From contig CALXJY010000009.1 of assembly GCA_944388755.1 (NCBI GenBank), positions 1 to 47,684 on the forward strand: 47,684 bases of DNA, written 5' to 3'. The notes beneath the pieces are model-generated. The model ran no database searches, was not told the origin of the DNA, and was given only the letters and a program-made list of their open reading frames with translations. This DNA comes from an uncultured Clostridia bacterium. GTDB taxonomy: Bacteria > Bacillota > Clostridia > TANB77 > CAG-508. Position numbers and translations under genes: made by a program. Of this stretch, positions 16,548 to 40,376 are shown piece after piece. The first letter of the stretch is position 1, and each line of letters starts with the position of its first letter.

Positions 16548-17330
16548 TTATTTTTGTAATAACATTTTGGCTTTTTCTATAAATTTTAGTTTTACCTCAT
16601 ATGGATATTCAATATCAATTTTTTTGTTTGCTAAAACAAGTTTAGGATTGTTTGTTGTTAAATTTTCTAATTTTTCATATCCTATTATATCTTCTATCAT
16701 TTGTAATGCTTCTGGTATTCTTGGATATATGGTATTTTGCCTATGTACATCACTACCTAAAAAATGTATTAAATTATTTTCAAAAAATTTTTCAACTATA
16801 AATTTAGCCTTTCTTCCATATTGTCCTAAAATACTTCCATAATTTGCTTGCATTAAACATCCTTTTTGTATTAGGTCATATACAAGTTCAGGCTCTTGTT
16901 GTATAAAACTATATCTTTCTGGATGTGCTAATATCGGTATAAGTTTATTTTCTTGAAGTGAGTATACAACATCATACAAATTTAATGGTTCATTATTAAG
17001 TGGCATTTCAAATAATACATAACATGTGTTATTAATTGTTGATGCTTTTCCTTGTTCTAATAGGCTCATTATATTTTCTGTTAAATATATTTCATTTGCC
17101 AAATATAAATTTGTGTTAATTCCTTTTGGTCTTAAATTTTCAGATATTGCTTTTAGCCATACTTCTCTTTCAGGTGTATCTGTCTCATAGTATCCCTCTA
17201 TATAGTGTGATGTTAATATTATTCCATCAAATCCCGCTTTTTCTGCTTCACTTATTAAATTAAATGTTTCTTCTATACTTTTAGAACCATCGTCAATATT
17301 TGGTAATATATGTGTGTGAAAGTCTATCAT
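16548..17330 (-). CDS. CpsB/CapC-type tyrosine-protein phosphatase (PHP fold)
   Basis: This 260-residue metal-dependent phosphatase of the PHP family (CpsB/Wzb4/YwqE type) removes phosphate from the BY-kinase encoded just upstream. MIDFHTHILPNIDDGSKSIE carries the first metal ligands (HTH and D). ILTSHYIEGYYET, IPILAHPERYSF and FLGSDVHRQNTIYP supply the further His and Asp ligands in the expected order. Length matches CpsB (about 243-260). It lies 25 bases after the kinase gene, so both belong to one unit that sets the phosphorylation cycle for chain length and export. Confidence 0.93.
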   Translation of the reverse strand: MIDFHTHILPNIDDGSKSIEETFNLISEAEKAGFDGIILTSHYIEGYYETDTPEREVWLKAISENLRPKGINTNLYLANEIYLTENIMSLLEQGKASTINNTCYVLFEMPLNNEPLNLYDVVYSLQENKLIPILAHPERYSFIQQEPELVYDLIQKGCLMQANYGSILGQYGRKAKFIVEKFFENNLIHFLGSDVHRQNTIYPRIPEALQMIEDIIGYEKLENLTTNNPKLVLANKKIDIEYPYEVKLKFIEKAKMLLQK

Positions 17331-17355: not shown

Positions 17356-18348
17356 TTAGTTTAAATTTTTCTTTTCATTTTCTAAATATGAATTTATTTG
17401 TTTTAGTATATCATCTGCATTTTTGGCTGGTCCTGTTGCCTTAGAATTATTTATATTTTTTGGTCTTTCTAAAGTTTCATTTGAGTTTACTTTTTTTATA
17501 TTTTCATTGTTACTTTTTGGGTTCTTTTCATGTTCTCTTCTAACTGTTTCTGTATTATTTCTTCTAAGATTTTGGCTAATAGTGTCACTTGTTCTAGATT
17601 TTAGTTGTCTACGACTGTCCATAGCCATAATTGCTTTTTTGTTTACTTTTTTTGTTGATGTTGATCCATAATAATATTTTTCTCCATATTTTTTAGCTGA
17701 AATCGGTACTTTATTTACAACTACTCCAGCTAGTTTTCCTCCAACATTTTGTATGTTTGCAATAACTCTTGCTAAATTATCTTTTTTTGTTTCTTTTACT
17801 GCAGATACTATAACTGTAGAATCTACTATTCTTGATAATATAACTGAATCTGTTACTAATTCACATGGTGTTCCATCAATTATAATAATATCACATACTT
17901 CTTTTAGTTCTTCTAATAAATGGTTCATTTGTGGTGATATTAATAATTCTGATGGGTTTGGAGGAATATTTCCAGCTGGTATAACTAATAAATTACTTAT
18001 TGGTGTGGTTTGTATATATTCTGTGATATCTTTTTCTTCTCCTTCTTCTAAGTCTATACCTGATAGATAATTAGAAAGACCTGGTCTTGGAGAGATATCA
18101 AATATTGAATATAATCTTCCTTTTCTCATATCTGCATCAATTAGAATGACTTTTTTTCCAGCTTGTGCAAATGTTACTGCTAAGTTAGATGACACATAAC
18201 TTTTTCCTTCACCTGGAAGTGTAGATGTTATTAATAATGTTTTTAGCTTATTTGTAGTATTCATAAATTGTATATTTGTTCTTAATGTTCTAAAAATCTC
18301 AGAAATTGGAGATTTAGGATCTCTTTGTACTATCAATTCTTTTTTCAT
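17356..18348 (-). CDS. CpsD/CapB-type tyrosine kinase (BY-kinase) with long C-terminal extension
   Basis: This 330-residue cytoplasmic autokinase works with the membrane activator encoded just upstream. Walker A is STLPGEGKS (42-50), Walker A' is VILIDADMRKGR (67-78) and Walker B is IIIIDGTP (154-161). BY-kinases normally end in a tyrosine cluster. Here the cluster (YGEKYYYGS, 221-229) is followed by about 100 more residues rich in Lys, Asn, Arg and Ser and nearly free of Tyr, ending DDILKQINSYLENE. Its start overlaps the CpsC stop by one base (TAATG) behind AAAAGGAGG, implying coupled translation. Confidence 0.93.
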   Translation of the reverse strand: MKKELIVQRDPKSPISEIFRTLRTNIQFMNTTNKLKTLLITSTLPGEGKSYVSSNLAVTFAQAGKKVILIDADMRKGRLYSIFDISPRPGLSNYLSGIDLEEGEEKDITEYIQTTPISNLLVIPAGNIPPNPSELLISPQMNHLLEELKEVCDIIIIDGTPCELVTDSVILSRIVDSTVIVSAVKETKKDNLARVIANIQNVGGKLAGVVVNKVPISAKKYGEKYYYGSTSTKKVNKKAIMAMDSRRQLKSRTSDTISQNLRRNNTETVRREHEKNPKSNNENIKKVNSNETLERPKNINNSKATGPAKNADDILKQINSYLENEKKNLN

Positions 18349-19055
18349 TATTTTCTACCTCCTTTTTCTGGTAAATTTATTGGTATTGCAGCAAGTACTG
18401 GTACTTTGAATACTCTTTCTACATCTTCTTGTGATTTAATTGTTGTATCTAGCATATTTGCTATTAAAACATATAAAACTGCTACTACTAATCCAACAAA
18501 TATAAATATTACAATATCTCTTGTATGGTTTACATTTGAAGGTGTATTTGTAACTTCTGCTTCATCTACTACATAAACATTGCTAATGTTGTAGTATTCT
18601 TTTATTTTATCTGTAAATACTTTTGCTATTTCATTTGCTATTTTAGCAGCATATATTGCATCTTTATTTGTTACTGTAATTTCTATTAATTCTGTGTCTT
18701 TTACTGAACTTACATTAACTCCTTGTCTTATTTCTTCTTCATCTGCATTTATTCCTAAGTTTGCTCTCACTGTTCTTATTACATTTTTGCTTTTTACAAG
18801 TTCACTATATGTTGAAACAAGTTTTGAGTTCAGTGTAATTTCTGTAGTTGTAATTGTATCTATATCTTGTGTTTGTGTTCCTGTAGTATTTGATACTTTT
18901 GCTAATAATAAAGTTGTTGAAGACTGATATTTAGGTGTTACAAAAGCCATAGTATATATAATACCTATTACCATAAATATTGCAACAATTAAAACTATAT
19001 GCACTTTTTTATTCCAAAATATTGAAATTAATTCTTTTAAATCTAATTCCTCCAT
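18348..19055 (-). CDS. CpsC/Wzz-family chain-length modulator
   Basis: This 235-residue membrane protein has one helix near residues 18-37 (VHIVLIVAIFMVIGIIYTMA) and one near 178-200 (IVIFIFVGLVVAVLYVLIAN), with an outer domain between. It starts EELDLKELISIFWNKK, typical of the Wzz domain (PF02706). The short C-terminal cytoplasmic tail (VERVFKVPVLAAIPINLPEK) is the usual kinase-activating end in Gram-positive CpsC/CapA proteins. It would set polysaccharide chain length and activate the BY-kinase, which overlaps its stop. Confidence 0.92.
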   Translation of the reverse strand: MEELDLKELISIFWNKKVHIVLIVAIFMVIGIIYTMAFVTPKYQSSTTLLLAKVSNTTGTQTQDIDTITTTEITLNSKLVSTYSELVKSKNVIRTVRANLGINADEEEIRQGVNVSSVKDTELIEITVTNKDAIYAAKIANEIAKVFTDKIKEYYNISNVYVVDEAEVTNTPSNVNHTRDIVIFIFVGLVVAVLYVLIANMLDTTIKSQEDVERVFKVPVLAAIPINLPEKGGRK

Positions 19056-19904
19056 CTATTCTTGTTCCTTTCTGTTTTCTGCTCTAATATTTGTAATTAT
19101 ATTTCCTATAATAATCATTAAAATTCCAATTACAAATAGAATTATTCCTGTATTTAATATATTTTCTAATATATTATTTAAAATATTTTTTATAGTATCT
19201 GAAACTGCGTTATTTAATACTAAAATATTAGATACTTTTATTTTAGAATCTATAAAAGATCTTACTATTATGTAGAAAAGTCCTGAAGAAGTTAGTGATA
19301 TTCCTACATGTGCTAAAGTATTTAAAAGATTCTTATAATTACATGCTAAAATTATAAATACACTGACTGCTATACCTATAACAGAAAATTTATTTATTTG
19401 TTCTTTATATGTATTTACTTTTCTTACTACATTGTTTATTTGTCCTTCATATTCTGTATGTGACATAGTTTCTTTGTATTGTGCTTCTATTTTGGCTATA
19501 TATTCTTCTATAGCTTTTTGTTGTGTAGTTGTTAGTTTTATACCACCTAGAGATGTTTCTATATTATTTTTTAGATTTGTTGCAATTTCTTCAGTATTTA
19601 TTGTGACATTTGTACCATCATATAGGTTGTTAATTATTGTGTTTGTATCTTTTTTTATTTGCTCTGTTGTAACAATATTTTCTATTACACTTTCATCTAA
19701 ACCTGATTGTCCAATATAATTTTCAAAGCTATTTTGTATTTCTTCTTTTATTTTTTCATAGTAATTTGCTTCGTCTAGTTTCTCTAGCATATATTCTTTA
19801 TTTAAAATAGTAGAAGAAGCAATATTAAGAATTACAACAGCTATTATACAACATGTGCAAATTACAATTGCTATATATTTTATAATATTTAATATAATTT
19901 TCAT
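19056..19904 (-). CDS. Membrane protein of unknown function in the sortase-CpsC interval
   Basis: A 282-residue protein with one helix at about residues 7-30, a predicted outer helical domain (about 35-165) rich in Glu, Asn and Thr, and three further helices at about 172-190, 197-215 and 250-272. The tail RAENRKEQE is cytoplasmic. I recognise no family; the layout resembles small Firmicute sensors or scaffolds, which is only a guess. It starts 13 bases after the sortase stop behind AAAGGAG and its stop touches the CpsC gene, so it belongs to the same transcript. Confidence 0.7.
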   Translation of the reverse strand: MKIILNIIKYIAIVICTCCIIAVVILNIASSTILNKEYMLEKLDEANYYEKIKEEIQNSFENYIGQSGLDESVIENIVTTEQIKKDTNTIINNLYDGTNVTINTEEIATNLKNNIETSLGGIKLTTTQQKAIEEYIAKIEAQYKETMSHTEYEGQINNVVRKVNTYKEQINKFSVIGIAVSVFIILACNYKNLLNTLAHVGISLTSSGLFYIIVRSFIDSKIKVSNILVLNNAVSDTIKNILNNILENILNTGIILFVIGILMIIIGNIITNIRAENRKEQE

Positions 19905-19917
19905 AGTTAGCTCCTTT

Positions 19918-20529
19918 CTACTCTTCTAATTCTGCATATACTACATATCTTTGTGTAGCATATCCTATATTATTAAATGGATAGCATGTGTACACCATTA
20001 ATATTTCCTTCTCATCTTGGATAGGAAGTTTGTCTGTTTCTGTTTCATTAATTAGTTTCATATCATATATCTTGTAATTATATTCTCCATATGTTGTAGT
20101 TACTTTTATTTCATTTCCTATTTGTAATTCAGAAAACCTACGAAATACATTTTTAGAATTGTGTCCCATATAAATTATAGAACCACCTTCTCCTGGAAAA
20201 TAACTACCACTTGAATGTCCTACACCTTTTTTTAATATTTCTAGTGTATCTCCATAATATACTGGCAATTCTATACCTATTTTAGGTATTTCTATTGTTG
20301 CATATTGTGTTCCATATTCAGGATAGTTTTGTAATCTTTTAGATGATGTATCTATTGTTGTTGGTTTTTCTTCAAATGTTCTATCTACTTTTATTGCGAC
20401 TTGATTTACTAATAATATGGCTTCATCTATCTTTTGCCCTAAAGATATTTTTATTCCACCTAAAATAATTATAACAATAAATAAAGCAACTATTAAGTTG
20501 ATAATAGTTGCCTTTATAAATTTTTTCAT
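19918..20529 (-). CDS. Sortase (class D-like) paired with the LAYTG protein
   Basis: This 203-residue transpeptidase has an N-terminal signal anchor (about residues 9-29). Its sortase domain starts TIEIPKIGIELPVYYGD; the catalytic His is in SIIYMGHNSKN, the Cys in ILMVYTCYPFNN, and the Arg in YATQRYVVYAE. The spacing and the TC-YPF segment resemble class D enzymes, but its likely substrate ends in LAYTG, a motif preferred by class E in Actinobacteria, so the subclass is open. It starts three bases after the stop of the LAYTG gene, which implies a dedicated substrate/enzyme pair. Confidence 0.9.
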   Translation of the reverse strand: MKKFIKATIINLIVALFIVIIILGGIKISLGQKIDEAILLVNQVAIKVDRTFEEKPTTIDTSSKRLQNYPEYGTQYATIEIPKIGIELPVYYGDTLEILKKGVGHSSGSYFPGEGGSIIYMGHNSKNVFRRFSELQIGNEIKVTTTYGEYNYKIYDMKLINETETDKLPIQDEKEILMVYTCYPFNNIGYATQRYVVYAELEE

Positions 20530-20531: not shown

Positions 20532-21068
20532 TTATGCTCCAACTTTAGCAAATCTTTTTTTAGCAACAACTGTTATACCTGCAGCTAGGGCAATTACTGC
20601 TATTGAAGAAGCAACTAAAACTGTATTTGTATTTCCTGTGTAAGCTAATTTTCCAGTATTTGATAGAGATGCTGTTTCAATTAGTTTACCTTCTGCATTA
20701 TATACTTCAACAGTTCCTTTGTTGAATACTAATGTTAATCCAATTGTATTTGCAGCTTCTTGTGCTAATGTTTTAATTTGAGCTTTAGCTTCTGCTGATA
20801 ATTCTTTGTAGTCTTTAACTCCTTCTGCATCCATAATAGCAATTGCTTCATTTACTTTTGCTATTATTGCTGTAGCTTCTTCATCAGAAACTGGGTTATC
20901 AGCTAAATATCTTTCTACTTTTACTTTATCTGCAGATGTCATTCCATATACTGATAATTTTGCATATACGTCATCTGCTAATGTTGCACCTGTAGCAGCT
21001 TGAACTCCTGTAAATACTAAAGCTACTAACATTACAAATAAAATTGCGATTGTTAATGTTTTTTTCAT
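20532..21068 (-). CDS. Secreted helical protein with LAYTG wall-sorting signal
   Basis: A 178-residue protein with a clear signal peptide (MKKTLTIAILFVMLVALVFT, cleaved near GVQA-AT). A small acidic, Ala-rich helical domain spans about 25-125 and contains VYGMTSADKVKVERYLADNP. The sorting signal is LAYTG (141-145), a hydrophobic stretch (TVLVASSIAVIALAAGITVV), then KKRF. It is expected to be attached to the wall by the sortase three bases downstream. The repeat-like 'YGMT…V..YLA' segment loosely recalls processed acidic surface proteins, but I cannot assign a family. Strong promoter and ribosome site suggest high expression. Confidence 0.85.
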   Translation of the reverse strand: MKKTLTIAILFVMLVALVFTGVQAATGATLADDVYAKLSVYGMTSADKVKVERYLADNPVSDEEATAIIAKVNEAIAIMDAEGVKDYKELSAEAKAQIKTLAQEAANTIGLTLVFNKGTVEVYNAEGKLIETASLSNTGKLAYTGNTNTVLVASSIAVIALAAGITVVAKKRFAKVGA

Positions 21069-21178: not shown

Positions 21179-21976
21179 TTATTTTGTTTTTATTGATTTT
21201 GATCTTATTGCACTAAATATTCCAATTATTGCCAATATAATAACTGCAATTATTATTGTATTTTCTAAACCAGCCTTTGGCAAAGATGTTACTTTTCTAG
21301 CACTTGCTGTAGTGTTTGTGCTTATTGCATTTAGGCTATTTGTTGTTCTCGTTTCATTTTTTGTATTATTATTTTTTGAGTTTTTGTTTGTTGTTTCATT
21401 GTTTGCTACTTCATTTTTTGTTGTTTCATTAACTTTATCATTTGATGTTTCATTTTTATTTTCGTCATTTGGTGTTTCTGCTTGTGTTTCTATTGATATT
21501 GTTTTTGTGATATTTGATAAATCTTGTGTTAAGGTTCCACTATTTGAAATCCTTGCATTTGTTAATGAGATGTTTATTTGATTAGCACTAATATTATCTT
21601 TTAATGTAAATGTTAATTGCATCATTTCTTGATTTGAACCAATATTGTCTGTATTAGCTACAATTGCTCCATTTGTATATGATGCTGACCATCCATTTTT
21701 TCCTTCTACCTTTACACTTTCTATAATATTTGCATCAAAACCAAGTGTCGCACTATATGCTACTACTTTATCATAGTCATTATCTCCTAAATTTTGTATA
21801 TTTCCAACATATATTACAGATGTAAATGTTTTTGTACCTTCGGCTAAATTAGTAGGTGTTGTTAGTGTAACTTCTGCACTTGCTGTACCACTTGTGTCTT
21901 CAGTAACTGCATTTACAACTTCTATTTGCATTAATATTAATAGAAAAACTATAATTAATGACATTACCTTTTTCAT
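21179..21976 (-). CDS. Cohesin-like surface protein with LPKAG sorting signal
   Basis: A 265-residue secreted protein. The signal peptide is at 1-23 (MKKVMSLIIVFLLILMQIEV, then VNA). Residues about 30-150 are a beta-rich domain whose order resembles a cohesin: TFTSVIYVGNIQN, AYSATLGFDANIIESVKVEG, GAIVANTDNIGSNQEMMQLTF and TLKDNISANQINISLTNARI. A linker of Asn, Thr, Glu and Lys (about 160-225) follows, then LPKAG (232-236), a hydrophobic helix and KSIKTK. It would be wall-linked by a sortase and could bind the dockerin of the glycoside hydrolase encoded next door. The cohesin assignment is from pattern, not a search. Confidence 0.75.
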   Translation of the reverse strand: MKKVMSLIIVFLLILMQIEVVNAVTEDTSGTASAEVTLTTPTNLAEGTKTFTSVIYVGNIQNLGDNDYDKVVAYSATLGFDANIIESVKVEGKNGWSASYTNGAIVANTDNIGSNQEMMQLTFTLKDNISANQINISLTNARISNSGTLTQDLSNITKTISIETQAETPNDENKNETSNDKVNETTKNEVANNETTNKNSKNNNTKNETRTTNSLNAISTNTTASARKVTSLPKAGLENTIIIAVIILAIIGIFSAIRSKSIKTK

Positions 21977-22010
21977 CTTTTGCTACCTTCTTTCTACATT
22001 TTTCTTTTAT

Positions 22011-22039
22011 ATTTTAGCATATGTTTTTTTTCTGTGCAA
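22011..22039 (-). promoter_or_regulatory. Promoter of the cohesin-like gene
   Basis: On the minus strand TTGCAC (22034-22039) and TAAAAT (22011-22016) are separated by 17 bases, 35 bases upstream of the ATG. The -35 lies within AAAACTATTGC, also present at the -35 of the LAYTG gene (21127-21135). This gives the cohesin-like gene a start independent of the large upstream operon. Confidence 0.6.
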
Positions 22040-22078
22040 TAGTTTTTATATTACATTTTTGTTACATTTTGTATATTT

Positions 22079-25000
22079 TTACTTCCATGAAAGTTGTTCT
22101 AAAATTAATATTCTAATTCTTATATAGTCATCTATTGAAAGCTCTTTTTCATCACAGTTTGCATCTGCAGATAGTTTTTCTATATCATCTAATTTTCTTA
22201 GTCCTAAGAGATATTGTCTCATCCTTGTGAAATCATCTACTGTTACTTGTCCATCTCTTGTTATATCTCCTGCTACAATTAGTGTATATTTTATTCCTGA
22301 TGATGTGGTTAATATGTCACCTGAAGCTATTATGTCTGTTTGTTTTAGCTCAGTTTTTCCATTATTTCTTGTAATTTTGTAATCTTTTATTATACCTATA
22401 TTTTTATCAAATTCTTCTTTACTTGTGTTGTATTTTATTTGTTTAATTATTTTTCCATCTACTTTGTATTTACTTTCAGGTCTTTCCCTCACTTGGAATT
22501 GCATAGTTGTAGCGTTTCCTGCTTTATCTGTAGCAGTCAGCTTATATATTCCTTCCACATTTATTGTTTGACCATTTTTGTAGTTTACTTTTACATTATT
22601 TAGGTATAATGTCACTTCTTTTAAATTTGTATCTGTAGCTTTTGGTGCTATCTTTTGGTCTGTGTAATATGTTTGTCCATTTTCCACTCCTGAAATTACA
22701 GGCATTGTTTTGTCTATGTTATTTACTGTTGCTGTAATTTCATATTCTGTACTATTTATTATATATTTAAATGTAAATGTTCCATTTTGTGTAAATGTGT
22801 AAGTTTTATTTCCATTATTGTTTGTAACTTGTATGTCTATATCTGTATTTATTGTTGCTATTACGTCTTTATTTGTAAATTCTGTTGTTGAATATGTAAT
22901 AGTTGGTTTGTGTTCTTCTAAATATTTATCTATATATATTTTTGCGAAATCTTTTGCCCATGATTCAAGTAACTCACTATGTATATTTTTGCTTACTATT
23001 AATCCAGTTTTTATTGGGTTTTCTTCTTCTAAACTGTTTATATATTCTGCTTTTTCGTTATAATCTTTGCTTAATTGTATTATTTTTTCTGGATATATTA
23101 TTTCTAGCTTTTCATTGTTTTTTATTAATTTTTCTGTTTCTTCTATTTGTTTTTTGGCTTTTTGTATGTCAACATTGCGTTCTATAGCTGTTACTGTTAC
23201 TAAATCTTCATATGATTTTCCTATGTCTTCTAGTGTATCTAACATTGAACTTAGTTTTACATATTCTATATTTAGCTTATTTTCTTTTACTGCCTTTATT
23301 AATTCTGTTCCTATATTATAGTGTTTTTGCATTTCTTGTATTGCTGTTTCTTGAGATATTTGTGTTTGGTTTACTAAGTTTTGCATATAATTTTTTTGAA
23401 CATTTATATTTGCTTGTATTGTAGGCACATTTGTTAATTCTGTTTTGTATTTTTCTTCAAATTCTTCATATTTTTCAAGTGCTGTGTTTGATATTGCTTG
23501 GTTATAATATGATGTTTGAATATTGTCTAAATATACAGGTGATGATGTTATTGTTAGTGTTCCATTTTGGTTTTGTATTTCTTTTCCATATAAATCTGTT
23601 GCTGTGAAGTCTTTATATTCTATGGTTATATTTTTTGTATTGTCTTTTGCCCATGTTATAATTTTTGGTTTTCCGTCTTTATTATATACATGTGTTTCTA
23701 ATCCTTCTGCTAAATTTATTGTTCCTATATATTCTGATCCATTTGTGTTTTGATAGTAGTTTTTCATTGCATAATATGCTAGTTTTGGAGTGTAGTTGTT
23801 ATATATCGCTCCAAAGTTTGCTTCTCTTGAACTTGAATTTGATGCCTTGTTCCAAAAATTATATAGTAATTGTAATGTAGCATTATATTTATCCATCATA
23901 ACTGAATTTTGTACATTTTTTTGTGATTGTACATCTTCTGTTACTCCATTTCCGTCATAAGAAGATATTCCATATTCTGTAATATCATTTTCGATAAATC
24001 CTCCAAAGCTGTTCAAAGTATCTTTATATTGGTTTAATATATTATGATATCTTTCACCTTGTTTTTCTGTTATAATCCAATCATATGGGTGATACGAATA
24101 TCCATACGAGTTTTTATATGCTCCTTTTTCTGTTATCTTAGTAAAGAATGTATCTCCTTTTAATATTCCATCTGAATTATTTGCTGCATTTGACAGTGCT
24201 CCTGTAATAAGTTTTACCTTTATATTATTTTCCTTAAATAATTTATTTATTTCTTCTACAGTTCTTGTGTACCAATTTAGATATTCTTCACTGGTATATC
24301 CTTCTCCATTGTAATTACTGTTTTTTATATTTGGCTCATTAAACATTTCTATTCCATATATATTTGGAAATCCCTGTGCTACTTTAAGTGCAAAATTTGC
24401 TACTTTTTCTACTTCTTCTTCACTATTAATTTTTTGATCTTCTCCTAGTGTATTACCTATACCTGCTAAGTTAAGCAAAATTTTTATTTCATTATCTTCT
24501 ACTTCTTTAATCCAACTATATCTTGAAAAATCATATACATCATTTCCTTTAATAACAGATGACATTTTCATAGAATCTCTAATAACTTTTACCCCACTGC
24601 TAAAAAGAAGTTCCTTATCTTTCTCATATTTTTCCCAATTCAAATCAACATAATGTGTATTAGTTCCTTTTTGTGATAATTCATCTAAGAATTGTTCTTG
24701 ATATGGCATTACATAATATACTGTTTGTGTTCTTTGATATTTAAAAGTATTATTATTTTCCAATATCATAATATATAAATCATTTTTTCCTTCTAGTGTA
24801 AAGTATTCTGAAATATTTATGGTATCTTCTATTTTATCAGTGTTTTTATATTCTATTTTGTTTATTTCTTTATTATTGATATAAAATACAATATTATATG
24901 TGGAATTTATATCTAAATTGTTTATATTAAATTTAACATTGTACTCATTGCCTTTTATAAAAACATTTGTATCATTTTCAAAACTAATTTCATTTATTGC

Positions 25001-25180
25001 TTCATCTATTCCTTCTTCTGCATATAGGCTTGCAAGCTCTATGTTTGTCAATACGATTTGGGTTGATTGATATGCTGTAATAACTGCAAAGATGGTTGCA
25101 AATATTATTAAAAATATTGTAAGACGTATTTTTAATTTTTCTTGTTTCTCATAATTTATCTTTTTACGTTTTTTTCCCAT
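22079..25180 (-). CDS. Membrane-anchored clan GH-A glycoside hydrolase with dockerin
   Basis: A 1033-residue extracellular enzyme. A basic start (MGKKRKKINYEK) and helix at about 19-42 form an uncleaved signal anchor. A beta domain (about 65-160) precedes a TIM barrel (about 170-480) with IYGIEMFNEPN (acid/base Glu282), YSYHPYDW (362-369) and ENDITEYGISSYDG (nucleophile Glu402), the clan GH-A layout, closest to GH39/GH5-like enzymes such as PslG. Helical spacers, two Ig-like domains (VNNIDKTMPVISGVENG) and a type I dockerin follow: GDITRDGQVTVDDFTRMRQY (971-990) and SADANCDEKELSIDDYIRIR. It ends the polysaccharide operon and may trim or release the polymer. Confidence 0.88.
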   Translation of the reverse strand: MGKKRKKINYEKQEKLKIRLTIFLIIFATIFAVITAYQSTQIVLTNIELASLYAEEGIDEAINEISFENDTNVFIKGNEYNVKFNINNLDINSTYNIVFYINNKEINKIEYKNTDKIEDTINISEYFTLEGKNDLYIMILENNNTFKYQRTQTVYYVMPYQEQFLDELSQKGTNTHYVDLNWEKYEKDKELLFSSGVKVIRDSMKMSSVIKGNDVYDFSRYSWIKEVEDNEIKILLNLAGIGNTLGEDQKINSEEEVEKVANFALKVAQGFPNIYGIEMFNEPNIKNSNYNGEGYTSEEYLNWYTRTVEEINKLFKENNIKVKLITGALSNAANNSDGILKGDTFFTKITEKGAYKNSYGYSYHPYDWIITEKQGERYHNILNQYKDTLNSFGGFIENDITEYGISSYDGNGVTEDVQSQKNVQNSVMMDKYNATLQLLYNFWNKASNSSSREANFGAIYNNYTPKLAYYAMKNYYQNTNGSEYIGTINLAEGLETHVYNKDGKPKIITWAKDNTKNITIEYKDFTATDLYGKEIQNQNGTLTITSSPVYLDNIQTSYYNQAISNTALEKYEEFEEKYKTELTNVPTIQANINVQKNYMQNLVNQTQISQETAIQEMQKHYNIGTELIKAVKENKLNIEYVKLSSMLDTLEDIGKSYEDLVTVTAIERNVDIQKAKKQIEETEKLIKNNEKLEIIYPEKIIQLSKDYNEKAEYINSLEEENPIKTGLIVSKNIHSELLESWAKDFAKIYIDKYLEEHKPTITYSTTEFTNKDVIATINTDIDIQVTNNNGNKTYTFTQNGTFTFKYIINSTEYEITATVNNIDKTMPVISGVENGQTYYTDQKIAPKATDTNLKEVTLYLNNVKVNYKNGQTINVEGIYKLTATDKAGNATTMQFQVRERPESKYKVDGKIIKQIKYNTSKEEFDKNIGIIKDYKITRNNGKTELKQTDIIASGDILTTSSGIKYTLIVAGDITRDGQVTVDDFTRMRQYLLGLRKLDDIEKLSADANCDEKELSIDDYIRIRILILEQLSWK

Positions 25181-25182: not shown

Positions 25183-26325
25183 TTACTTTTCCTTTACTTT
25201 TTTATATATATAATATACTAATTTATTATTTTTTAATTTTTGTTTTATTTTTCTTTTTTTAAAAACATTTTGTTTAATTCTATGTAGTCCCCCTTTTAAA
25301 TATAGCTTTTTTAGTTTACAATAATTTCGTGGTTTTTTTGATGGATGTTGTAGTTGTGAATTTCCATTTACTGCCTCTTGTACTGGTCTTTCTTCAAAGT
25401 TAAATTCAGCTATTAATTCATCTAATAAATTACTTCCTTTTTCACTAATTGGTAGTACTACAGAAATACCTTCTTTTTTGCTTTTATATATTTCAGCCTC
25501 TTTATCTAATCCCCAAAAGTCTCCTATCGTTATATCAGAACATCTCTCTGGTTTTGCATATAAACATTGGTAGCAATTTTCTCTATAGAATAAAGATTCT
25601 AAAAAGCCATAATAGTATATAGACTCTTCTTTGCTTATTTGTTTTACAATTTTACTATCTTTATATAATTTTAAGATGAAACCTTCTTTTGATCTAAATG
25701 ATATTCCATCTATGTTTTCATCTGTTAAATCTTTTATTTCATCTTTTAAATATCGTTGAGGGGGGACTCCATGACATATCAAGTCTACAGTGTATAAATT
25801 ATCATATTCTTTTCTTAAGAAACTTTTTAATCCAGCAATTTGGCATGGTGTTCCAATAAATAGTACTAGTTTTTTATTTTCTAAATCTTCTTTAGCCATG
25901 CTATATGTTTTGTTAATATAGCTGTGTACATATTTAGAACCTTGTAATTTTTCAATCTCTTTTTCATTGTCAATTCTTATAGTTTGAACTAATCCTTTTT
26001 CATTATTTTCAAAAGAGGCACCATATACTACTCCATCTTTTTTTATAATATTTTTTGCTAAAATAGTTGCTATGCCTCCAGAAGTAGATTTTTTTATTAA
26101 TTCACTATTTTTTCCGTACATAGCGAAACATTCTTTTGGATAATAAGTCTTAACTTTATTGATACTTGGGCAAATTTTTTTACATAAATTACATTCTACA
26201 CATTTTGTTTTGTCTATAACTGGATAAATTGCCCCATTTTCATCTTCTTCCATATGTATACAATTTTTTGGACATATATTTACACAGGCATAACATCCTG
26301 TACATTTTTCCTTTTCTACAACCAT
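25183..26325 (-). CDS. FrhB/FdhB-like iron-sulfur protein 1 of surface polysaccharide locus
   Basis: A 380-residue protein with an N-terminal 2[4Fe-4S] ferredoxin domain (CTGCYACVNICPKNC and CVECNLCKKICP, residues about 8-52). It is followed by the coenzyme F420 hydrogenase/dehydrogenase beta-subunit N- and C-terminal domains (PF04422/PF04432): KSTSGGIATILAKNII, LVLFIGTPCQIAGLKSFL, VDLICHGVPPQRYL and SDITIGDFWG. Family members also occur in polysaccharide loci beside pyruvyl transferases; their electron partner and reaction there are unknown. Its stop is two bases before the dockerin enzyme. A basic C-terminal tail may meet the membrane. Confidence 0.88.
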   Translation of the reverse strand: MVVEKEKCTGCYACVNICPKNCIHMEEDENGAIYPVIDKTKCVECNLCKKICPSINKVKTYYPKECFAMYGKNSELIKKSTSGGIATILAKNIIKKDGVVYGASFENNEKGLVQTIRIDNEKEIEKLQGSKYVHSYINKTYSMAKEDLENKKLVLFIGTPCQIAGLKSFLRKEYDNLYTVDLICHGVPPQRYLKDEIKDLTDENIDGISFRSKEGFILKLYKDSKIVKQISKEESIYYYGFLESLFYRENCYQCLYAKPERCSDITIGDFWGLDKEAEIYKSKKEGISVVLPISEKGSNLLDELIAEFNFEERPVQEAVNGNSQLQHPSKKPRNYCKLKKLYLKGGLHRIKQNVFKKRKIKQKLKNNKLVYYIYKKVKEK

Positions 26326-26347
26326 TACTTTTTCTCCTATAGATATT

Positions 26348-27481
26348 TTATTTTTTTAAATATGCTCTTACTAATTGTTTTAACATTTTTATTCTTAATA
26401 CTTTTTTTGCTGTACTTGTAAAGTCACCTTTATACTGTTTTCTAAACTTTTTTCTGAACTCATTTCTTTTTGATGGTCGTCTTAAATGAACACTTCCATT
26501 AATTGCTTCTTCTAATTTTCTTTCCTCATAAAATACATTATTTGATGTGCATTTATTAAAAAAGTCATTTCCTTTTTGAGTGTTAACTAATACTAATGAT
26601 ATTCCTTTATGTTTTTCTTCATCATTTATTTTATCATCATTTTGTATTCCCCAAAAATCTCCTATTGTTATATCAGATACTCTATTAGATGTAGCATATT
26701 TGCAATCTAAACAACTTTCGCGTTGTAACATTGCTAGTAAAAATGCTGTAGCATATAAGTCTCTGTCTTTTGTTATGCTACATATTAATTCATTTTCATT
26801 AAATAATTTAAGTACATAGTTTTCTGAGTCTCTAAAAGAGACATTAGTTGCTTTTCTCTTATATTTTTTCTCTAAATAATTAATATAGTTTGTTAAGTAT
26901 TGTTGTGATGGGACTCCGTGACACACCAAATCTACTGTTATTAGATTTTCTTTATCTATATTTTTTACTTCTAGATATTTGTTTAGTCCTTGTATTTGGC
27001 ATGGTGTTCCAATAAATATTATTTTTTTATCTTCTTTTAAAAATCTTCCAACATTTTCATAATTTTTTCCTATATCACTTTGGCAGTATTTTGAACCTTT
27101 ATATTTTAAAGCTTCTTCTTTATTGTCAGTATATGAGTGTTTTAATATAAGATTTTCATCAAATGATGTTCCGAATACAATATATCCGTTATCAATTGCC
27201 TCTTTATAAAGAATTGATGCTACTGCTCCTGATGTGCTTGTTTTTCTATCGTTTTCATCTTTACTCCATGTTGCAAATGCTGTAACTGGTGTATTTTTAT
27301 TAATAGGGCTATTATTTGGGCATACTTTTCTACATAAATTACAGTGTATGCATTTGCTTTCATCTATTTTTGGCTGTAATTCTCCGTATTTATTGTATTC
27401 CATTGTTATGCAATTTTTAGGACATATATTATAACATGCCATACATCCTGTACATTCTTCTTCTTTACATATTTTATTCAT
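26348..27481 (-). CDS. FrhB/FdhB-like iron-sulfur protein 2
   Basis: A 377-residue paralogue of the neighbouring protein at 25183-26325 with the same architecture: CTGCMACYNICPKNC and CIHCNLCRKVCP at the N-terminus, TSTSGAVASILYKEA, IIFIGTPCQIQGLNKYL, VDLVCHGVPSQQYL and SDITIGDFWGI. All eight ferredoxin cysteines are present, so two [4Fe-4S] clusters are likely. It sits between the broken DUF1919 gene and the first paralogue, in a tight operon. The tandem arrangement suggests duplication followed by divergence. Confidence 0.88.
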   Translation of the reverse strand: MNKICKEEECTGCMACYNICPKNCITMEYNKYGELQPKIDESKCIHCNLCRKVCPNNSPINKNTPVTAFATWSKDENDRKTSTSGAVASILYKEAIDNGYIVFGTSFDENLILKHSYTDNKEEALKYKGSKYCQSDIGKNYENVGRFLKEDKKIIFIGTPCQIQGLNKYLEVKNIDKENLITVDLVCHGVPSQQYLTNYINYLEKKYKRKATNVSFRDSENYVLKLFNENELICSITKDRDLYATAFLLAMLQRESCLDCKYATSNRVSDITIGDFWGIQNDDKINDEEKHKGISLVLVNTQKGNDFFNKCTSNNVFYEERKLEEAINGSVHLRRPSKRNEFRKKFRKQYKGDFTSTAKKVLRIKMLKQLVRAYLKK

Positions 27482-27487
27482 ATTAAA

Positions 27488-28176
27488 TCACTCGCTTTCT
27501 CCGTTCAACCATTTAATATAATTAAAATTTTTTGCATATTGATATAATCTTTTTCCAAATATATTTGCTACATCTGTTATTGTTCCAACACAATGTGGAT
27601 CACTCCATTTTTTTACAACTCTACAACTTTTGAATTCATCATATTTTTTATGTGTAAAACATACTTTATTCTTATATTTTAGATTATCAAATCTTTTTAA
27701 ATATTGATATGGTAAGCACCACCTATCAGTCATCATAATAAACAAATTGTCTTTGTTTATTCTTGTCTTTCTTTCATTCCATTTTTGAATAGCCTCTTCA
27801 ATAGTTTTGTAATGTTTAAAATATAGTGTTATGTTACCCCCCTCGTGCGTATTTTACCTATTGGGTAATTTAGAGGAGATTTTACTGGTTCAATTTCTGA
27901 ACTTAAATAATCATCTAAGTTTTCTAAAAATTCCACAAAATCTTTTGGTGTAATATATAAATTTATGGTAGGACTTAAAAATCTTTGCCCTAAGTCATTA
28001 TATATTATTCCACCGATACATGTATTTGATAATATTGTAAATTCTTTATTTTTTATTTTTTTTCTTTCTATTTTATTTCTTATCAATTTTCTATATTTTT
28101 TTCCTATTTTTTGCATGCCTAATTTTATAAAGATTTTTTTATATGTTAATGAAATTTTTTTACGCATTTTTCTCAT
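27488..28176 (-). pseudogene. DUF1919 exopolysaccharide protein, frameshifted at a G-run
   Basis: Two frames together make one DUF1919 (PF08942) protein. The first, from ATG 28176, reads FTILSNTCIGGIIYNDLGQR, FLSPTINLYITPKDFVEFLE and NYPIGKI, then stops at 27829. The second continues with GGNITLYFKHYKTIEEAIQK, WNERKTRINKDNLFIMMTDR and PYQYLKRFDNLKYKNKVCFT to 27488. The switch coincides with six G (plus-strand C 27837-27842); one more G would restore a single frame. Members are found in capsule loci with unknown activity. It overlaps the upstream pyruvyl transferase stop by ATGA. Slippage, a sequencing error or a true pseudogene are all possible. Confidence 0.85.
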
Positions 28177-29213
28177 TCCTTTAATAATTTTTCTAATATA
28201 CTTAATGATTTATTTCTCCATTCTAATATATTTTTTTGAGAAATGTCAAAATTAATTTCTTCCAATAATTTATTTTTGAATTCTTCATATTCTTCTTCAT
28301 TTTCCTTAAATTCGCATTTTATTAGTCCTGTTTTATTTAGTACATCTACTACTTTTTGTCCTGATGGTATCGAAATAAATTGTTTTTTATTTAGTATTGA
28401 GAATATTGTTCCATGAAATGTAGTTGTTATAACATATTTAGCATTTTGTATTAATTTGCAAAATTCTAGTGGTGAACAGTTTATGCATTTATCACAAAAT
28501 GAATGTTTAAAACATGCTGAAACTATTAACAAATTTTGTTCTTTTGAAAATCTTTTTATATATTCTTTTTGTTTTTCTGTAAAGTTGTATGAATATACTA
28601 AAATATAATCTTTATTTATATTAATATCATATTTTTTATCAAATTCTTTTACATCTAGTAAAAATGTTGGGTCACATACCATTTCAGGTTCTATTCCTAT
28701 TGTCTCTTTTACATTTTTTTGTGTTCTTTCATCTCTTACAAATATTCCATCTAAATTTTTCATTCCCTCTATTAAGTCAGGAAAATCTTTAAAATCTTCT
28801 GTTACAGCTTTTCCACAACTTATTGCAAAAGCTACTTTTTTTTCTGTTGGTATATCTATACCATAAAAGCATTTATTCCTAAAAGTCTGGGTTTTTACGT
28901 TCCAACATTCGTCACTACCTATTATAACTATATCAAATGTATCTTTTTTTACATCTTTAATTGAAATTTCTTCAAAGTTTTTTCTATCTTCTAAAAATAG
29001 ATTGTATTTTTTTGTATTAAAACTATATGATTTTAAATAATGTAATAGGTTTTTTCTGCTTGGATAATATATTTTTTTTACTTCTTTTTCTGTTCTAAAT
29101 TTTATAAATTTAACACTATGTCCCATTTCTTCAATTACTTTTTTGAGTGCATATGCTTGTAGATATGAACCAAAATTATTAGAATCATATACTGTTAATA
29201 TTCCAACTTTCAT
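28173..29213 (-). CDS. Polysaccharide pyruvyl transferase family protein 1
   Basis: A 346-residue protein of the CsaB/PssM family (PF04230), which transfers pyruvate from phosphoenolpyruvate to make ketals on sugars. It begins KVGILTVYDSNNFGSYLQAY, has VIIGSDECWN near residue 105, CDPTFLLD, and the hallmark TTTFHGTIFSILNKKQFI near residue 265. The ATG at 29213 follows GAAAGAGG; a TTG six codons earlier would overlap the flippase stop. A CxxCxxC-like cluster (SFCDKCINCSPLEFC) is unusual for the family. It is upstream of the DUF1919 and FrhB-like genes. Confidence 0.87.
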   Translation of the reverse strand: MKVGILTVYDSNNFGSYLQAYALKKVIEEMGHSVKFIKFRTEKEVKKIYYPSRKNLLHYLKSYSFNTKKYNLFLEDRKNFEEISIKDVKKDTFDIVIIGSDECWNVKTQTFRNKCFYGIDIPTEKKVAFAISCGKAVTEDFKDFPDLIEGMKNLDGIFVRDERTQKNVKETIGIEPEMVCDPTFLLDVKEFDKKYDININKDYILVYSYNFTEKQKEYIKRFSKEQNLLIVSACFKHSFCDKCINCSPLEFCKLIQNAKYVITTTFHGTIFSILNKKQFISIPSGQKVVDVLNKTGLIKCEFKENEEEYEEFKNKLLEEINFDISQKNILEWRNKSLSILEKLLKE

Positions 29214-29217
29214 TTTT

Positions 29218-30762
29218 TTACCTCTTTCCAAAGCTTAATACTTTTTGTTTTACTTTTGCTTTTTCTTTTTTATTTAATAAACAAATAAAGCTTACTATAT
29301 AACCTATAATACCTGCTATTACTGCCCATATTGCTAATTCAAGCCATGAACTAATTGTAATGTTCATGTTTATTATTGCAAATAATACCATTATTAAAGC
29401 TGATGTTGCTAAAGCTCTAAATAGTGTTCCATAGAATATTCCTTTCTTAACCTTCAAATTATGTGCTGCATACATTGGTACAAATGTTAATATTCTTATT
29501 ACTAATATTATTGAACTAACCCCTGCTATTGCATATACACCTAAATTTGTTGTTTGCACTAATATATAAGTTACAATTACACTTATTATTCCTAATGCAA
29601 ATGTAACAATTACTGGTACTTTTAATTTATTTGTTACTGTATTTATGGCATATAATGTATATATATTACTACTTACTAAATTAGGTAATAATGTTAATAT
29701 AGATAGTATTTGTATTTCTATTATTTCGTTTGGTGTTTTACTTGGTAGCCATAATGTAAAGAATTCTATTCCAAAAACTATAAAACCTGCTAATGGTACA
29801 ATCATTATTAATGACATTACTTTTATTGAAAATTTTGTTTCGTTTACTAATTCATCTATTTTATTTTTTGAATACAATATTGTAAATTGTGGTAAAAATA
29901 CATTACTTATTGTTCCTAGCAGAGTTAAAACTGCTGTTGGGATTGTTTTTGCAATTGATAAAGTTCCCATTGCTGTTGAATCTATAAAAAGATTTGCTAT
30001 TAATAAATCTAACCCACTTAATAACATTGTACTCAAATTATTTAATGAATTCCATAAACCTGACTTTATTAATTCTATGACTGCTGATATTTTAAAATTT
30101 TTTATAGTTACTTTTAATTCAGGTGCTAATTTTCTGGTTAAGTACACATTTGCAATCATTACATATGCCGTATATATTATTGCAGATATGCTTATAAAAT
30201 ATATTTTTGGTTGAAATATACCAAATAATATTAATATAGCTATTATTTTTAATACATTTCCTATTATTTGTTGTATAGATGATAGATATATTTTATTTTT
30301 TACAAATGTTGCTATATTAAATACTGTGCTTAATAATGTTATTATGAAATTAATAAATACTAAAGTAAATGTTATTTTAACATCTGTATTTAAGTATTCT
30401 GGTATATTTAGTAATTTGTTTAAGTTAAATATCATTAGTACAAGTAATATTAATATTACTATTGACATTATTATATTAGAAATAAAAACAGATGAAAAAT
30501 ATTCATTTGCTTTTTTTTCTTCTCCTCTATGTATTGCAATAGTTATAAATCTACTTGCCATTGAATTTAGTGCTACTGTAACTATTGTAGCATAACTCAC
30601 GAAGTTATTTGCTAATCCAATAAAACCATATGCTTCATTTCCTAATTTTTCAACTAGAATTGGTGTTAATATAAGGCTTATTCCCATTTGTACAGCTAGT
30701 GCTACAATACTTGCTATTAAATTAATTAGTAATCTTTTATTTTTTGATATAGCTTGTTCCAT
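29218..30762 (-). CDS. Wzx-type polysaccharide flippase (MOP superfamily)
   Basis: A 514-residue integral membrane protein with about 12-14 hydrophobic helices, beginning with NKRLLINLIASIVALAVQMG and LTPILVEKLGNEAYGFIGLA. The second sequence is characteristic of oligosaccharide flippases (PF01943/PF14667). It would move the lipid-linked repeat unit across the membrane. Length is normal. It starts 15 bases after the next pyruvyl transferase stop and is the only flippase in the locus. Confidence 0.92.
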   Translation of the reverse strand: MEQAISKNKRLLINLIASIVALAVQMGISLILTPILVEKLGNEAYGFIGLANNFVSYATIVTVALNSMASRFITIAIHRGEEKKANEYFSSVFISNIIMSIVILILLVLMIFNLNKLLNIPEYLNTDVKITFTLVFINFIITLLSTVFNIATFVKNKIYLSSIQQIIGNVLKIIAILILFGIFQPKIYFISISAIIYTAYVMIANVYLTRKLAPELKVTIKNFKISAVIELIKSGLWNSLNNLSTMLLSGLDLLIANLFIDSTAMGTLSIAKTIPTAVLTLLGTISNVFLPQFTILYSKNKIDELVNETKFSIKVMSLIMIVPLAGFIVFGIEFFTLWLPSKTPNEIIEIQILSILTLLPNLVSSNIYTLYAINTVTNKLKVPVIVTFALGIISVIVTYILVQTTNLGVYAIAGVSSIILVIRILTFVPMYAAHNLKVKKGIFYGTLFRALATSALIMVLFAIINMNITISSWLELAIWAVIAGIIGYIVSFICLLNKKEKAKVKQKVLSFGKR

Positions 30763-30777
30763 AATTCTCCCATCTTT

Positions 30778-31893
30778 TTAGTTTATATCTAATGCATTTT
30801 TTAAATATTTTATACTTCTTTCTTTTTCTCTTTGTATTTTCTCATTTGATTTTTTAAAATCTATTTCATATGCCTTTTTTAATTTTTCGTCTATATTATT
30901 TGTGCTGATATTTCTTTCTTCTAATCCTATTGTTTTTAGTAGTGTAGATCTTCTATAGTCTTTGTCTGCATTTATTGAATAAAATGGTTTGTTTAATATT
31001 GCAGAAAATATTGTGCCATGAAATGATGTTGTTAAAACTAGTTTTGCATTATTTAATAAATTAAGAAATTCAATTGGTCCTACTGCATATATTCTTTTAA
31101 ATCTAGATAGAAGTTCATTTTTACCTGCATATCTTGTAGTAACAACTGGCATATTAGTTTTTCTTGATATTTCTTTAACTAAATTAATATCATCTTTGGC
31201 TTGTCCTAAAGAATAATATAATATATATTCTCCATTAACCATTCTTTCTTTTGGAATTATATTTTCCCAGTCCTTTTTATCTAATAGAATTGTTGGATCC
31301 ATATGTATTTCAGGTTTTCTTCCTGTTAGATTATATATATTGTCATAACTTCCTTGTTCTCTTACAGAAAGACATTTATAGTCATTAATATATTTTTTTA
31401 TTTTTTCCTTTTCTTCTTCTGAAAAATCAATTGGTTTTGGTCCAAAACTGGCTGCATATGAGATTTTTTTACCTTTTTTTATAAAACCTAAGTAATATGC
31501 CCAATCAAAGTCATATGCTCTTAAATTCCATAATTGGTCACTTCCACTAATATAATAATCAAAATCAAAATTTTCTTTTTCTAGTTCCTCAATGGAATTA
31601 TATTCCTTAGTTACATTTAGTTTGTTATTTATAAAATCTTCAAATTTTTGATTTTTTATTTCATATGCCTTTTTATAGTCTCTCATAATAATGTTTCGTG
31701 TTATTTTTGATAATAGATTATTATCTCTATCTATAGAATACATATATTTTTGTCTTTCTGTTCTTAAATTTATTATTTTATATTCACAGTTTTGGTCACA
31801 AATTTTTTTTACAGTTTCTTGCAAGGCATATGCCTGAAAGCTTGACCCATAATTATATGGTGAATGAAATGTTACAACTCCTATTTTTTTCAT
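30778..31893 (-). CDS. Polysaccharide pyruvyl transferase family protein 2
   Basis: A 371-residue protein starting KIGVVTFHSPYNYGSSFQAY, with DYYISGSDQLWNLRAYDFDW, SVREQGSYDNIYNL, HMDPTILLDKKDW and TTSFHGTIFSAILNKPFYSI (about 287-306). These are the conserved points of PF04230 pyruvyl transferases. Expected role: adding pyruvate ketal, and thus negative charge, to a sugar of the repeat unit. It lies between the flippase and a GT2 gene. Confidence 0.87.
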   Translation of the reverse strand: MKKIGVVTFHSPYNYGSSFQAYALQETVKKICDQNCEYKIINLRTERQKYMYSIDRDNNLLSKITRNIIMRDYKKAYEIKNQKFEDFINNKLNVTKEYNSIEELEKENFDFDYYISGSDQLWNLRAYDFDWAYYLGFIKKGKKISYAASFGPKPIDFSEEEKEKIKKYINDYKCLSVREQGSYDNIYNLTGRKPEIHMDPTILLDKKDWENIIPKERMVNGEYILYYSLGQAKDDINLVKEISRKTNMPVVTTRYAGKNELLSRFKRIYAVGPIEFLNLLNNAKLVLTTSFHGTIFSAILNKPFYSINADKDYRRSTLLKTIGLEERNISTNNIDEKLKKAYEIDFKKSNEKIQREKERSIKYLKNALDIN

Positions 31894-31941
31894 AGCTTAA
31901 CTTTTTTAATATATTTTTATAAATATATTTTCTCCTTTCAC

Positions 31942-32943
31942 TTATTTATTTTTTGCTAGTTTTTTTATTGTTCTTTTTAATTTGTAATAATTAAAAAGTA
32001 AGTTCCTATTTATATATAATAAGTTATATTCAAATTTTGACATTGTACTAAGATTTTGAAATATTTTTTTCTTGTAGTTCTTAAAATTATTTTTTAAAAA
32101 CAAATATTCATTAAGAAATTCTGTTTTATTATATGTATTTATATCATTAATTAAGCATATATTTTTGTGATAAATAAATATATATTTTATCCTGTCTATA
32201 TTTAATGTATCTTGTAATTGTGGATATTTTTTTATCATGTATTTATATCTTTCTGTAACAAAATAAAATAAGTCTTTTGTAAGTTTTAAATCAATATTTC
32301 CTAGTATGCTGTCTCCTCTTTGTAAGTAATAATATTCTATTTTATCAGTATATACAATTTTATTTGCTTTTTCAAATATTTTATGCATTACTGCTAAATC
32401 TTCCATCTTTCTACCTACTGGGAATTCTATATTATTTAGAATTTCTTTTTTATACAGTTTATTCCATGCATAACTTTTTATTTTATTTTCTATTAGTTTT
32501 TTTAATCCTTCTAGTTTAGTGTATTCAATAGTGTTTTGTTCATCTTTTACATTATTTTCTATGATTTCATTTTCTTTTACCTCTTTTAGGTTAACTATTG
32601 ATATGTCTGAATTTGTTTTTATTATATTATTATATAGAACTTGATACATATCTTTTTCTATATAATCATCACTATCTACAAATCCTATATATTTTCCTGT
32701 TGCGACTTTAAGTCCTGCATTTCTTGCATCTGAAAGTCCGCCATTTTTTTTGTGAATTATTTTTATTCTGTTATCTTTTTTTGCATATTCTTCACATATT
32801 TCAGGACATTTGTCAGGTGAACCATCATCAACTAATATTATTTCTAAATTTTTATATGTTTGGTTTAATACACTATCTATACATTTATATATGTATTTTT
32901 CAACTTTGTAAACTGGTATTATAATGCTTATTAAATCTTCCAT
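31942..32943 (-). CDS. GT2 family glycosyltransferase A
   Basis: A 333-residue GT-A fold transferase. It starts LISIIIPVYKVEKYIYKCID, has VDDGSPDKCPEICEEYAKKD for the nucleotide-binding strand, GGLSDARNAGLKVATGKYIG, and the metal-binding DSDDYIEKDM (about residues 89-98). The C-terminal half is basic and helical, fitting membrane association. It would add one sugar to the growing lipid-linked unit; donor and acceptor cannot be read from sequence. It starts three bases after the EpsG-like gene's stop. Confidence 0.93.
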   Translation of the reverse strand: MEDLISIIIPVYKVEKYIYKCIDSVLNQTYKNLEIILVDDGSPDKCPEICEEYAKKDNRIKIIHKKNGGLSDARNAGLKVATGKYIGFVDSDDYIEKDMYQVLYNNIIKTNSDISIVNLKEVKENEIIENNVKDEQNTIEYTKLEGLKKLIENKIKSYAWNKLYKKEILNNIEFPVGRKMEDLAVMHKIFEKANKIVYTDKIEYYYLQRGDSILGNIDLKLTKDLFYFVTERYKYMIKKYPQLQDTLNIDRIKYIFIYHKNICLINDINTYNKTEFLNEYLFLKNNFKNYKKKIFQNLSTMSKFEYNLLYINRNLLFNYYKLKRTIKKLAKNK

Positions 32944-32946
32944 ATT

Positions 32947-34068: not shown

Positions 34069-34101
34069 TTTTCAATTATTATATCTATCGATATTTCTCC
34101 T

Positions 34102-34258
34102 CTCATTTGTATTTTGTTAATATCTTTTTATATAAATTGACATTAATTGCTAATGTTAAAAATTGTATTTTCTTTTTTATTTTGATATCTGATGCTATTA
34201 TGGTAAATATATTTTTTCTGAAGTATGTTTGTACTTCTTTTATAAAATTTTTTTCATC
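34102..34258 (-). pseudogene. C-terminal remnant of a GT2-like glycosyltransferase
   Basis: The frame from 34258 down to a TGA at 34102-34104 has no start codon and is blocked upstream by stops. It encodes about 51 residues including FIKEVQTYFRKNIFTIIASD, LTLAINVNLYKKILTKYK, which look like the basic C-terminal tail of GT2 enzymes in capsule loci. It begins where the truncated polymerase ends, in another frame, as expected for a deletion scar. The family call rests on resemblance only. Confidence 0.55.
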
Positions 34259-34724: not shown

Positions 34725-34729
34725 ACATC

Positions 34730-35779: not shown

Positions 35780-35785
35780 TTTAAT

Positions 35786-36976: not shown

Positions 36977-36987
36977 ATTTCATTCTC

Positions 36988-39283: not shown

Positions 39284-39296
39284 CTTCTGCTCCTAA

Positions 39297-40373: not shown

Positions 40374-40376
40374 TTT

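Follow-up and report, generated by a model that had tools for sequence, protein, structure and literature searches.

Two groups of described proteins are among those closest to the locus reported here. ScaE of Ruminococcus flavefaciens and other single-cohesin 'nonSLH-anchoring' scaffoldins have one cohesin and a C-terminal sorting signal anchoring a dockerin-bearing partner to the wall, an arrangement predicted also for the protein considered below (PMC4081043; PMC11557425). PslG of Pseudomonas aeruginosa is a glycoside hydrolase clan A (GH-A) endoglycosidase encoded in an exopolysaccharide (EPS) operon; its membrane association is important for synthesis, and its catalytic glutamates align with those of the enzyme described here (PMC9075953; PMC6813494). 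PslG acts in Psl synthesis when membrane-associated and in Psl degradation when free in the periplasm (PMC6813494), and the reason why an EPS cluster should need an enzyme that hydrolyzes its own polymer is described as an open question for PslG (PMC9075953). We analyzed contig CALXJY010000009.1 (assembly GCA_944388755.1; 47,684 nt, hereafter the window), part of the 1.5 Mb, 64-contig draft genome of an uncultured Clostridia bacterium. Here a 1033-amino-acid (aa) open reading frame (ORF; 22079-25180, minus strand), which encodes an enzyme with a C-terminal dockerin, is followed directly by a 265-aa ORF (21179-21976, minus strand) for a cohesin-bearing surface protein, the two lying adjacent as the initial annotation of this DNA had placed them. 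That annotation had proposed a small one-enzyme cellulosome for an EPS hydrolase, a proposal now supported by the recurrence of the pair in EPS loci and by the segregation of the enzyme with polysaccharide-specific genes. With a probability of roughly two in three, we read the pair as a cellulosome-like device of one enzyme and one socket that serves EPS biosynthesis or release, in which a capsule-type-specific enzyme is held on a constant anchor.

Sequence profiles and the predicted structure identify the 265-aa protein as a cohesin. It has a signal-peptide-like N-terminus, and the Asn/Thr-rich linker (low-confidence coil in the model) and LPKAG sorting signal previously described for a secreted protein were both seen, together with a hydrophobic helix and a basic tail. 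P233 and G236 were invariant in 22 homologues, and most homologues have LP.[AT]G at this position. Because the linker and sorting signal also occur in unrelated surface proteins of these genomes, homology was tested with the cohesin domain alone. Residues 25-162 used as query recovered the EPS-locus homologues with E-values of 4e-18 to 2e-9, and the match is therefore not just to the low-complexity linker and the sorting signal. PF00963 was matched by 13 of 18 aligned cohesin-family members (best 7.5e-14), one of the 18 having been selected because Pfam already named it a cohesin. The cohesin-family profile matched the solved structures of Clostridium perfringens NagJ (2.6e-9), C. thermocellum 3ul4 (7e-9) and C. 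cellulolyticum 1g1k (3.5e-7), and the top Foldseek matches of an AlphaFold2 (AF2) model built with 22 sequences were cohesins, with VIA-align Z scores of 13.3 to 2vo8 and ~8-13 to other cohesins. The cohesin-like beta domain of the initial annotation was thus borne out by both the family profile and the predicted structure, contrary to the lack of a cohesin fold that the annotation had named as grounds for rejecting its proposal. Searched as a single sequence against the PDB, the 265-aa protein gave unrelated matches only (E 0.025-0.18), and a tblastn search of plasmid records gave zero matches. Pfam and NCBIfam gave chance matches only for the 265-aa protein by itself, which was discarded as evidence against a cohesin once family profiles and structure were applied.

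For the 1033-aa protein, no Pfam family except the dockerin scored above its cutoff. The enzyme-family profile found Pseudomonas PslG as the best solved relative (8.2e-18, with the barrel covered), and the top Foldseek folds for the model, which has moderate confidence (mean predicted local distance difference test, pLDDT, 66), were GH39 5jvk (2.6e-13) and PslG (1.1e-9). The residues named earlier as catalytic, Glu282 in an NEP motif and Glu402 in TEYG of a clan GH-A enzyme, were both invariant in nine homologues, across which N281-E282-P283-N284 was unchanged. The GH39/PslG-like active site proposed for checking is supported by profile and fold, and the glutamates align with those of PslG. 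A membrane anchor of the enzyme's own had also been claimed, and a hydrophobic N-terminal helix was evident in both the sequence and the AF2 model. Judged by eye, enzymatic partners in other loci likewise have an N-terminal hydrophobic helix with no obvious cleavage site, whereas dockerin partners of the leucine-rich repeat (LRR) type instead have a cleavable-looking signal peptide. At the C-terminus, where a type I dockerin had been placed at residues 971-1033, PF00404 matched residues 970-1012 above the Pfam cutoff (E=2.7e-6), and two loop-helix repeats were visible in the alignment, the first loop having the canonical length with D972, D976 and D983.

We then examined the pairing of the two genes in genomes of related uncultured gut Clostridia, gathering regions around cohesin matches irrespective of dockerins. 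Of 31 cohesin genes in EPS loci, 22 had a dockerin-encoding gene as their immediate 5´ neighbour, compared with a dockerin frequency of 0-7% at every other position within eight genes; for non-EPS loci the corresponding values were 11 of 25 and 0-13%. The local dockerin profile used here was seeded partly from cohesin neighbours, was identical at all positions, and representative dockerins were confirmed by Pfam. A second set of loci, retrieved by their sortase and not via the cohesin, gave a cohesin/dockerin two-by-two table of 13/4/3/42 (Fisher p 1.3e-7, an optimistic value because these loci are related). Cohesin and dockerin distances were correlated across 26 EPS pairs (Mantel r 0.63), including when CpsC/CpsD distance was taken into account (partial Mantel r 0.56, permutation p 2e-4), and dockerins whose second loop has 13 residues form a class associated with one cohesin clade.

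Several loci in these sets showed other arrangements. Tandem cohesin genes or fragments were present at each of three loci (L258, L169 and L167), suggesting socket duplication and decay, and L106 has a row of at least five dockerin genes ahead of a single cohesin-LPxTG gene, a more extensive complement for one socket. At L223 and L242 the flippase and cohesin genes are separated by a gene of CapA-like appearance, and the dockerin enzyme is encoded several genes upstream within the locus. The EPS loci L095/L298 and L164/L299 are 88-98% identical though their genomes are assigned to different families, which could reflect recent transfer of a whole locus or a mis-binned contig.

Two natural comparisons allowed us to follow the enzyme when the coat genes differ. 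In the sister genome G400 (locus L204), which around the locus has 95-98% identity to the window, the cohesin, dockerin, sortase and flanks were 90-100% identical to those of the window, and the EPS region was 95-97% identical save for the catalytic domain, one FrhB gene and the polymerase position. Across enzyme residues ~165-465 the two had 33% identity, the window domain being nearer to that of another locus, L215 (60%). The FrhB gene at 25183-26325 was missing from G400, and at the polymerase position the window has an EpsG gene (32947-34068) and a remnant (34254-34733), while G400 has an intact gene for a 367-aa membrane protein beside an acyltransferase. This 367-aa protein had no Pfam match and is taken as the polymerase from its position and membrane character. 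In the second comparison, G049 and G245 had nearly all EPS genes in common as well as the same dockerin enzyme (88%). G333, with CpsB-D, sortase and chromosomal flank 86-99% identical to those of G245, was without the glycosyltransferase, flippase and polymerase genes and without the enzyme, and had retained the cohesin (65%). Together these comparisons indicate that the enzyme follows the polysaccharide-specific genes and that the cohesin is one of the constant components. We also noted that the G400 copy of the dockerin enzyme is broken by an in-frame stop and a short deletion (L204:2480-2700) into ORFs of 825 and 159 aa; intact copies occur elsewhere.

Across EPS loci the chassis was constant and the catalytic head exchangeable. 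Partners of the GH-A type were encoded in the window and at L099, L166, L180, L185, L186, L215, L231 and L259, and beta-helix partners were of two types (L094/L183/L228 and L095/L098/L164/L168/L170/L172). DUF4832 partners were present at L097/L174/L179 and a GH10-like partner at L192. L231 and L228 are without an adjoining cohesin, and at L180 the dockerin gene is three genes away. The DUF4832 label, as well as the LRR label, derives from the Pfam matches of one representative, and the beta-helix and GH10 labels were read from the sequence.

The predicted gene content identifies the surrounding region as a Wzx-dependent EPS cluster (Table 1). The enzyme gene had been described as the last of the polysaccharide operon, which is wrong, as genes for the cohesin, an LAYTG protein, sortase, a membrane protein, CpsC/Wzz, CpsD, CpsB and phosphomutase follow on the same strand. 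Residues His123, Cys182 and Arg194 of the sortase were unchanged across aligned homologues. The genes for the LAYTG protein, the class D-like sortase and the 282-aa membrane protein (window 19056-21068) were found together in nearly all 80 sortase-retrieved loci (L204-L283), usually directly before CpsC and with or without a cohesin present; this block may have a general role in anchoring or exporting EPS.

Table 1. Features of the docking pair and its polysaccharide locus in window coordinates.
Feature	Position	Strand	Basis
CpsB/CapC phosphatase	16548..17330	-	Pfam 7.5e-57
CpsD-like tyrosine autokinase	17356..18348	-	Pfam AAA_31
CpsC/Wzz chain-length protein	18348..19055	-	Pfam Wzz 6.3e-16
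282-aa membrane protein; constant block	19056..19904	-	Pfam scan and locus comparison
Sortase, closest to class D	19918..20529	-	Pfam E 9.8e-28; NCBIfam class D models below cutoff
178-aa secreted protein with LAYTG sorting signal; constant block	20532..21068	-	ORF and locus comparison
265-aa cohesin surface protein gene	21179..21976	-	ORF; family profiles; AF2; Foldseek; VIA-align
LPKAG sorting signal, residues 232-236, then membrane helix and basic tail	21269..21283	-	Sequence
Cohesin domain, residues 31-165	21482..21886	-	AF2 pLDDT mostly >90; VIA-align Z 13.3 to 2vo8
Membrane-anchored, dockerin-bearing GH-A enzyme gene	22079..25180	-	ORF; Pfam dockerin; PslG-like profile and fold
Type I dockerin, residues 970-1029	22094..22273	-	PF00404 and alignments
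X-module-like linker module before dockerin, residues 903-968	22277..22474	-	Conserved among partners with unrelated catalytic parts
Immunoglobulin (Ig)-like region, residues 760-898, weak BiPBP_C similarity	22487..22903	-	Pfam, AF2; conserved with other dockerin enzymes
Helical spacer, residues 556-756	22913..23515	-	AF2 helices, pLDDT mostly high
PslG/GH39-like catalytic domain, ~residues 160-465; portion replaced in sister genome	23786..24703	-	Profile, Foldseek, sister comparison
Glu402, putative nucleophile (TEYG)	23975..23977	-	Invariant 9/9 homologues; aligns with PslG TEWG
Glu282, putative acid/base (NEPN)	24335..24337	-	Invariant 9/9 homologues; aligns with PslG NEPN
N-terminal hydrophobic helix, ~residues 19-37, probably uncleaved membrane anchor	25070..25126	-	Sequence; AF2 helix 10-54
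Polysaccharide biosynthesis region	25183..41069	-	Pfam; initiating sugar transferase, 4 glycosyltransferases, 3 pyruvyl transferases, flippase, EpsG polymerase
Three FrhB-type Fe-S proteins	within 25183..41069	-	Pfam; third (26348-27481) by sequence
EpsG-family polymerase	32947..34068	-	Pfam EpsG 5.6e-42; absent at matching place in sister genome
Membrane-protein remnant, 159 codons, taken as earlier polymerase	34254..34733	-	84% nt identity to first 485 nt of the sister's intact 367-aa gene

We infer physical docking of the dockerin to the cohesin, sortase anchoring of the cohesin, cleavage of self-made EPS, and a reason for the double anchor, which would fit together as follows. The N-terminus of the enzyme would sit in the membrane beside the Wzx/EpsG/CpsC machinery while its C-terminal dockerin plugs into the cohesin, such that the enzyme is held between membrane and wall where the chain exits. 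There it would cut the polymer made by its own gene cluster, either setting chain length or releasing the chain, and the double attachment would keep it in place and away from the completed coat, which it could otherwise degrade. The constant platform would consist of the helix-Ig-X-dockerin chassis, the cohesin, the LAYTG protein, the sortase and CpsC/D/B, with the catalytic cartridge swapped along with the polysaccharide type. The odds seem to us evenly divided on the fuller form of this model, a cohesin-dockerin clamp for coat synthesis and not digestion. In this form, uncultured gut Clostridia of one order would have a modular platform that holds an exchangeable, polysaccharide-type-specific hydrolase or lyase between membrane and wall, and a change of coat type would switch the catalytic cartridge and the polymerase together.

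A number of observations weigh against the device proposed here. The LPKAG signal departs from the canonical LPxTG, the window cohesin by itself gave no PF00963 match at E up to 1, and the dockerin was scored low by AF2 (pLDDT <50), with a second loop of 13 residues, one above the canonical 12, a length found in 17 of the 38 non-redundant adjacent pairs. LRR proteins, which are not enzymes, account for six EPS dockerin partners (L169, L181, L187, L190, L211 and L258), and the platform is therefore not for hydrolases alone. Some EPS cohesins are without a dockerin in their vicinity (L165, L171, L173 and L177; the L184 locus is truncated), and at three loci a dockerin is present with no adjoining cohesin. 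In addition, the co-switch of catalytic domain and polymerase is known from one sister pair of fragmented metagenome-assembled genomes, and a second cohesin in the window genome (contig C3) might also accept the dockerin of the enzyme.

This last observation leads to the possibility that the dockerin binds another cohesin or itself and that the adjoining cohesin serves other dockerins, their co-localisation being a consequence of common regulation of surface genes. In its favour, there are two cohesins and three dockerins in the genome and several EPS cohesins have no dockerin neighbour, but immediate 5´ adjacency is kept across genera, and the partial Mantel correlation and the match of loop class to clade tie each dockerin to its own cohesin. 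The second cohesin also has its own sortase and a dockerin nearby, and we consider exchange of partners the least probable of the alternatives. This second cohesin (L114, contig C3) has an LPKTG signal and lies near a dockerin-bearing SH3 protein, with which it looks like a separate docking pair. Of the three dockerin matches in the genome, another is on a glucosaminidase-like protein (L115/L002, contig C24), and relatives have similar dockerin glucosaminidases. We found no polyvalent scaffoldin in the genome, where PF00963 gave one further cohesin, though the sensitivity of this model is limited, as it misses the window's own cohesin. It is also unlikely, if slightly less so, that the pair is a foraging system displaying a hydrolase or lyase against dietary or host glycans, as for ScaE and cSca5, with the EPS neighbourhood incidental or regulatory. 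Cohesin-dockerin systems of known function degrade foreign glycans (PMC4081043; PMC12997984), and further cohesin-LPxTG genes adjoin dockerin genes outside EPS loci in these genomes. However, the EPS pairs are embedded in Wzx-dependent EPS operons adjoining CpsC, both available comparisons show the catalytic domain changing in step with the EPS genes, and the nearest solved relative, PslG, has as its substrate the EPS produced by its own operon (PMC9075953).

A narrower form of the device proposed here, in which the docked enzyme serves release or dispersal only and cuts mature surface polymer from the wall side, not during synthesis, is possible, though we lean against it. The dockerin and wall anchor would tether the enzyme to the wall at one of its ends, and EPS-operon hydrolases, when free, can act on mature polymer (PMC6813494), but the enzymatic partners seem to keep an uncleaved N-terminal membrane helix, which would leave the catalytic domain near the membrane, the location in which PslG supports synthesis instead of degradation (PMC6813494).

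If the one-enzyme, one-socket device is correct, cohesin-dockerin docking would serve in building a cell's own coat as well as in digesting foreign glycans. The matched natural pairs, which have the same platform, different coat genes and a different catalytic domain, make testable the question of why an EPS cluster should code for an enzyme that cuts its own polymer, and they suggest a prediction rule for which enzyme cuts which capsule. The loci also provide candidate partners for dockerins in small gut genomes without a recognisable cellulosome. Among open-licence papers, we found no link of cohesin-dockerin to an EPS biosynthesis locus and did not find the combination with a coat-switching head; one paper on a partner of anaerobic methanotrophic archaea (ANME) names cohesins and capsules, but as separate features.

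Single-cohesin, sortase-anchored scaffoldins (ScaE, PMC4081043; PMC11557425; cSca5, PMC12997984) and EPS-operon glycosidases are already known. ScaE differs from the window protein in that it holds large scaffoldins for plant-fibre breakdown, while here the cargo would be a single protein from the adjoining gene in an EPS operon. The cSca5 protein of the Limousia mucinolysome is similar in being an LPxTG-anchored cohesin of a gut bacterium, but that system has multi-cohesin scaffoldins and mucin-degrading carbohydrate-active enzymes, and an EPS locus is not described in the portion of the source available (PMC12997984). C. perfringens NagJ and NanJ (PDB 2vo8, 2jh2 and 2w1n) have the closest cohesin folds (Z 12.3-13.3) and show pairwise, non-cellulosomal docking; their cohesin is fused to the glycosidase, whereas here it is on a separate protein, predicted to be attached to the wall, and self-made EPS is the probable target. 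PslG lacks the dockerin, Ig and spacer modules, resides in a Gram-negative periplasm and is retained at the membrane via PslA, PslD and PslE, not via a cohesin. By analogy, the membrane helix together with the dockerin-cohesin-wall attachment may be a Gram-positive answer to a PslG-like need for retention.

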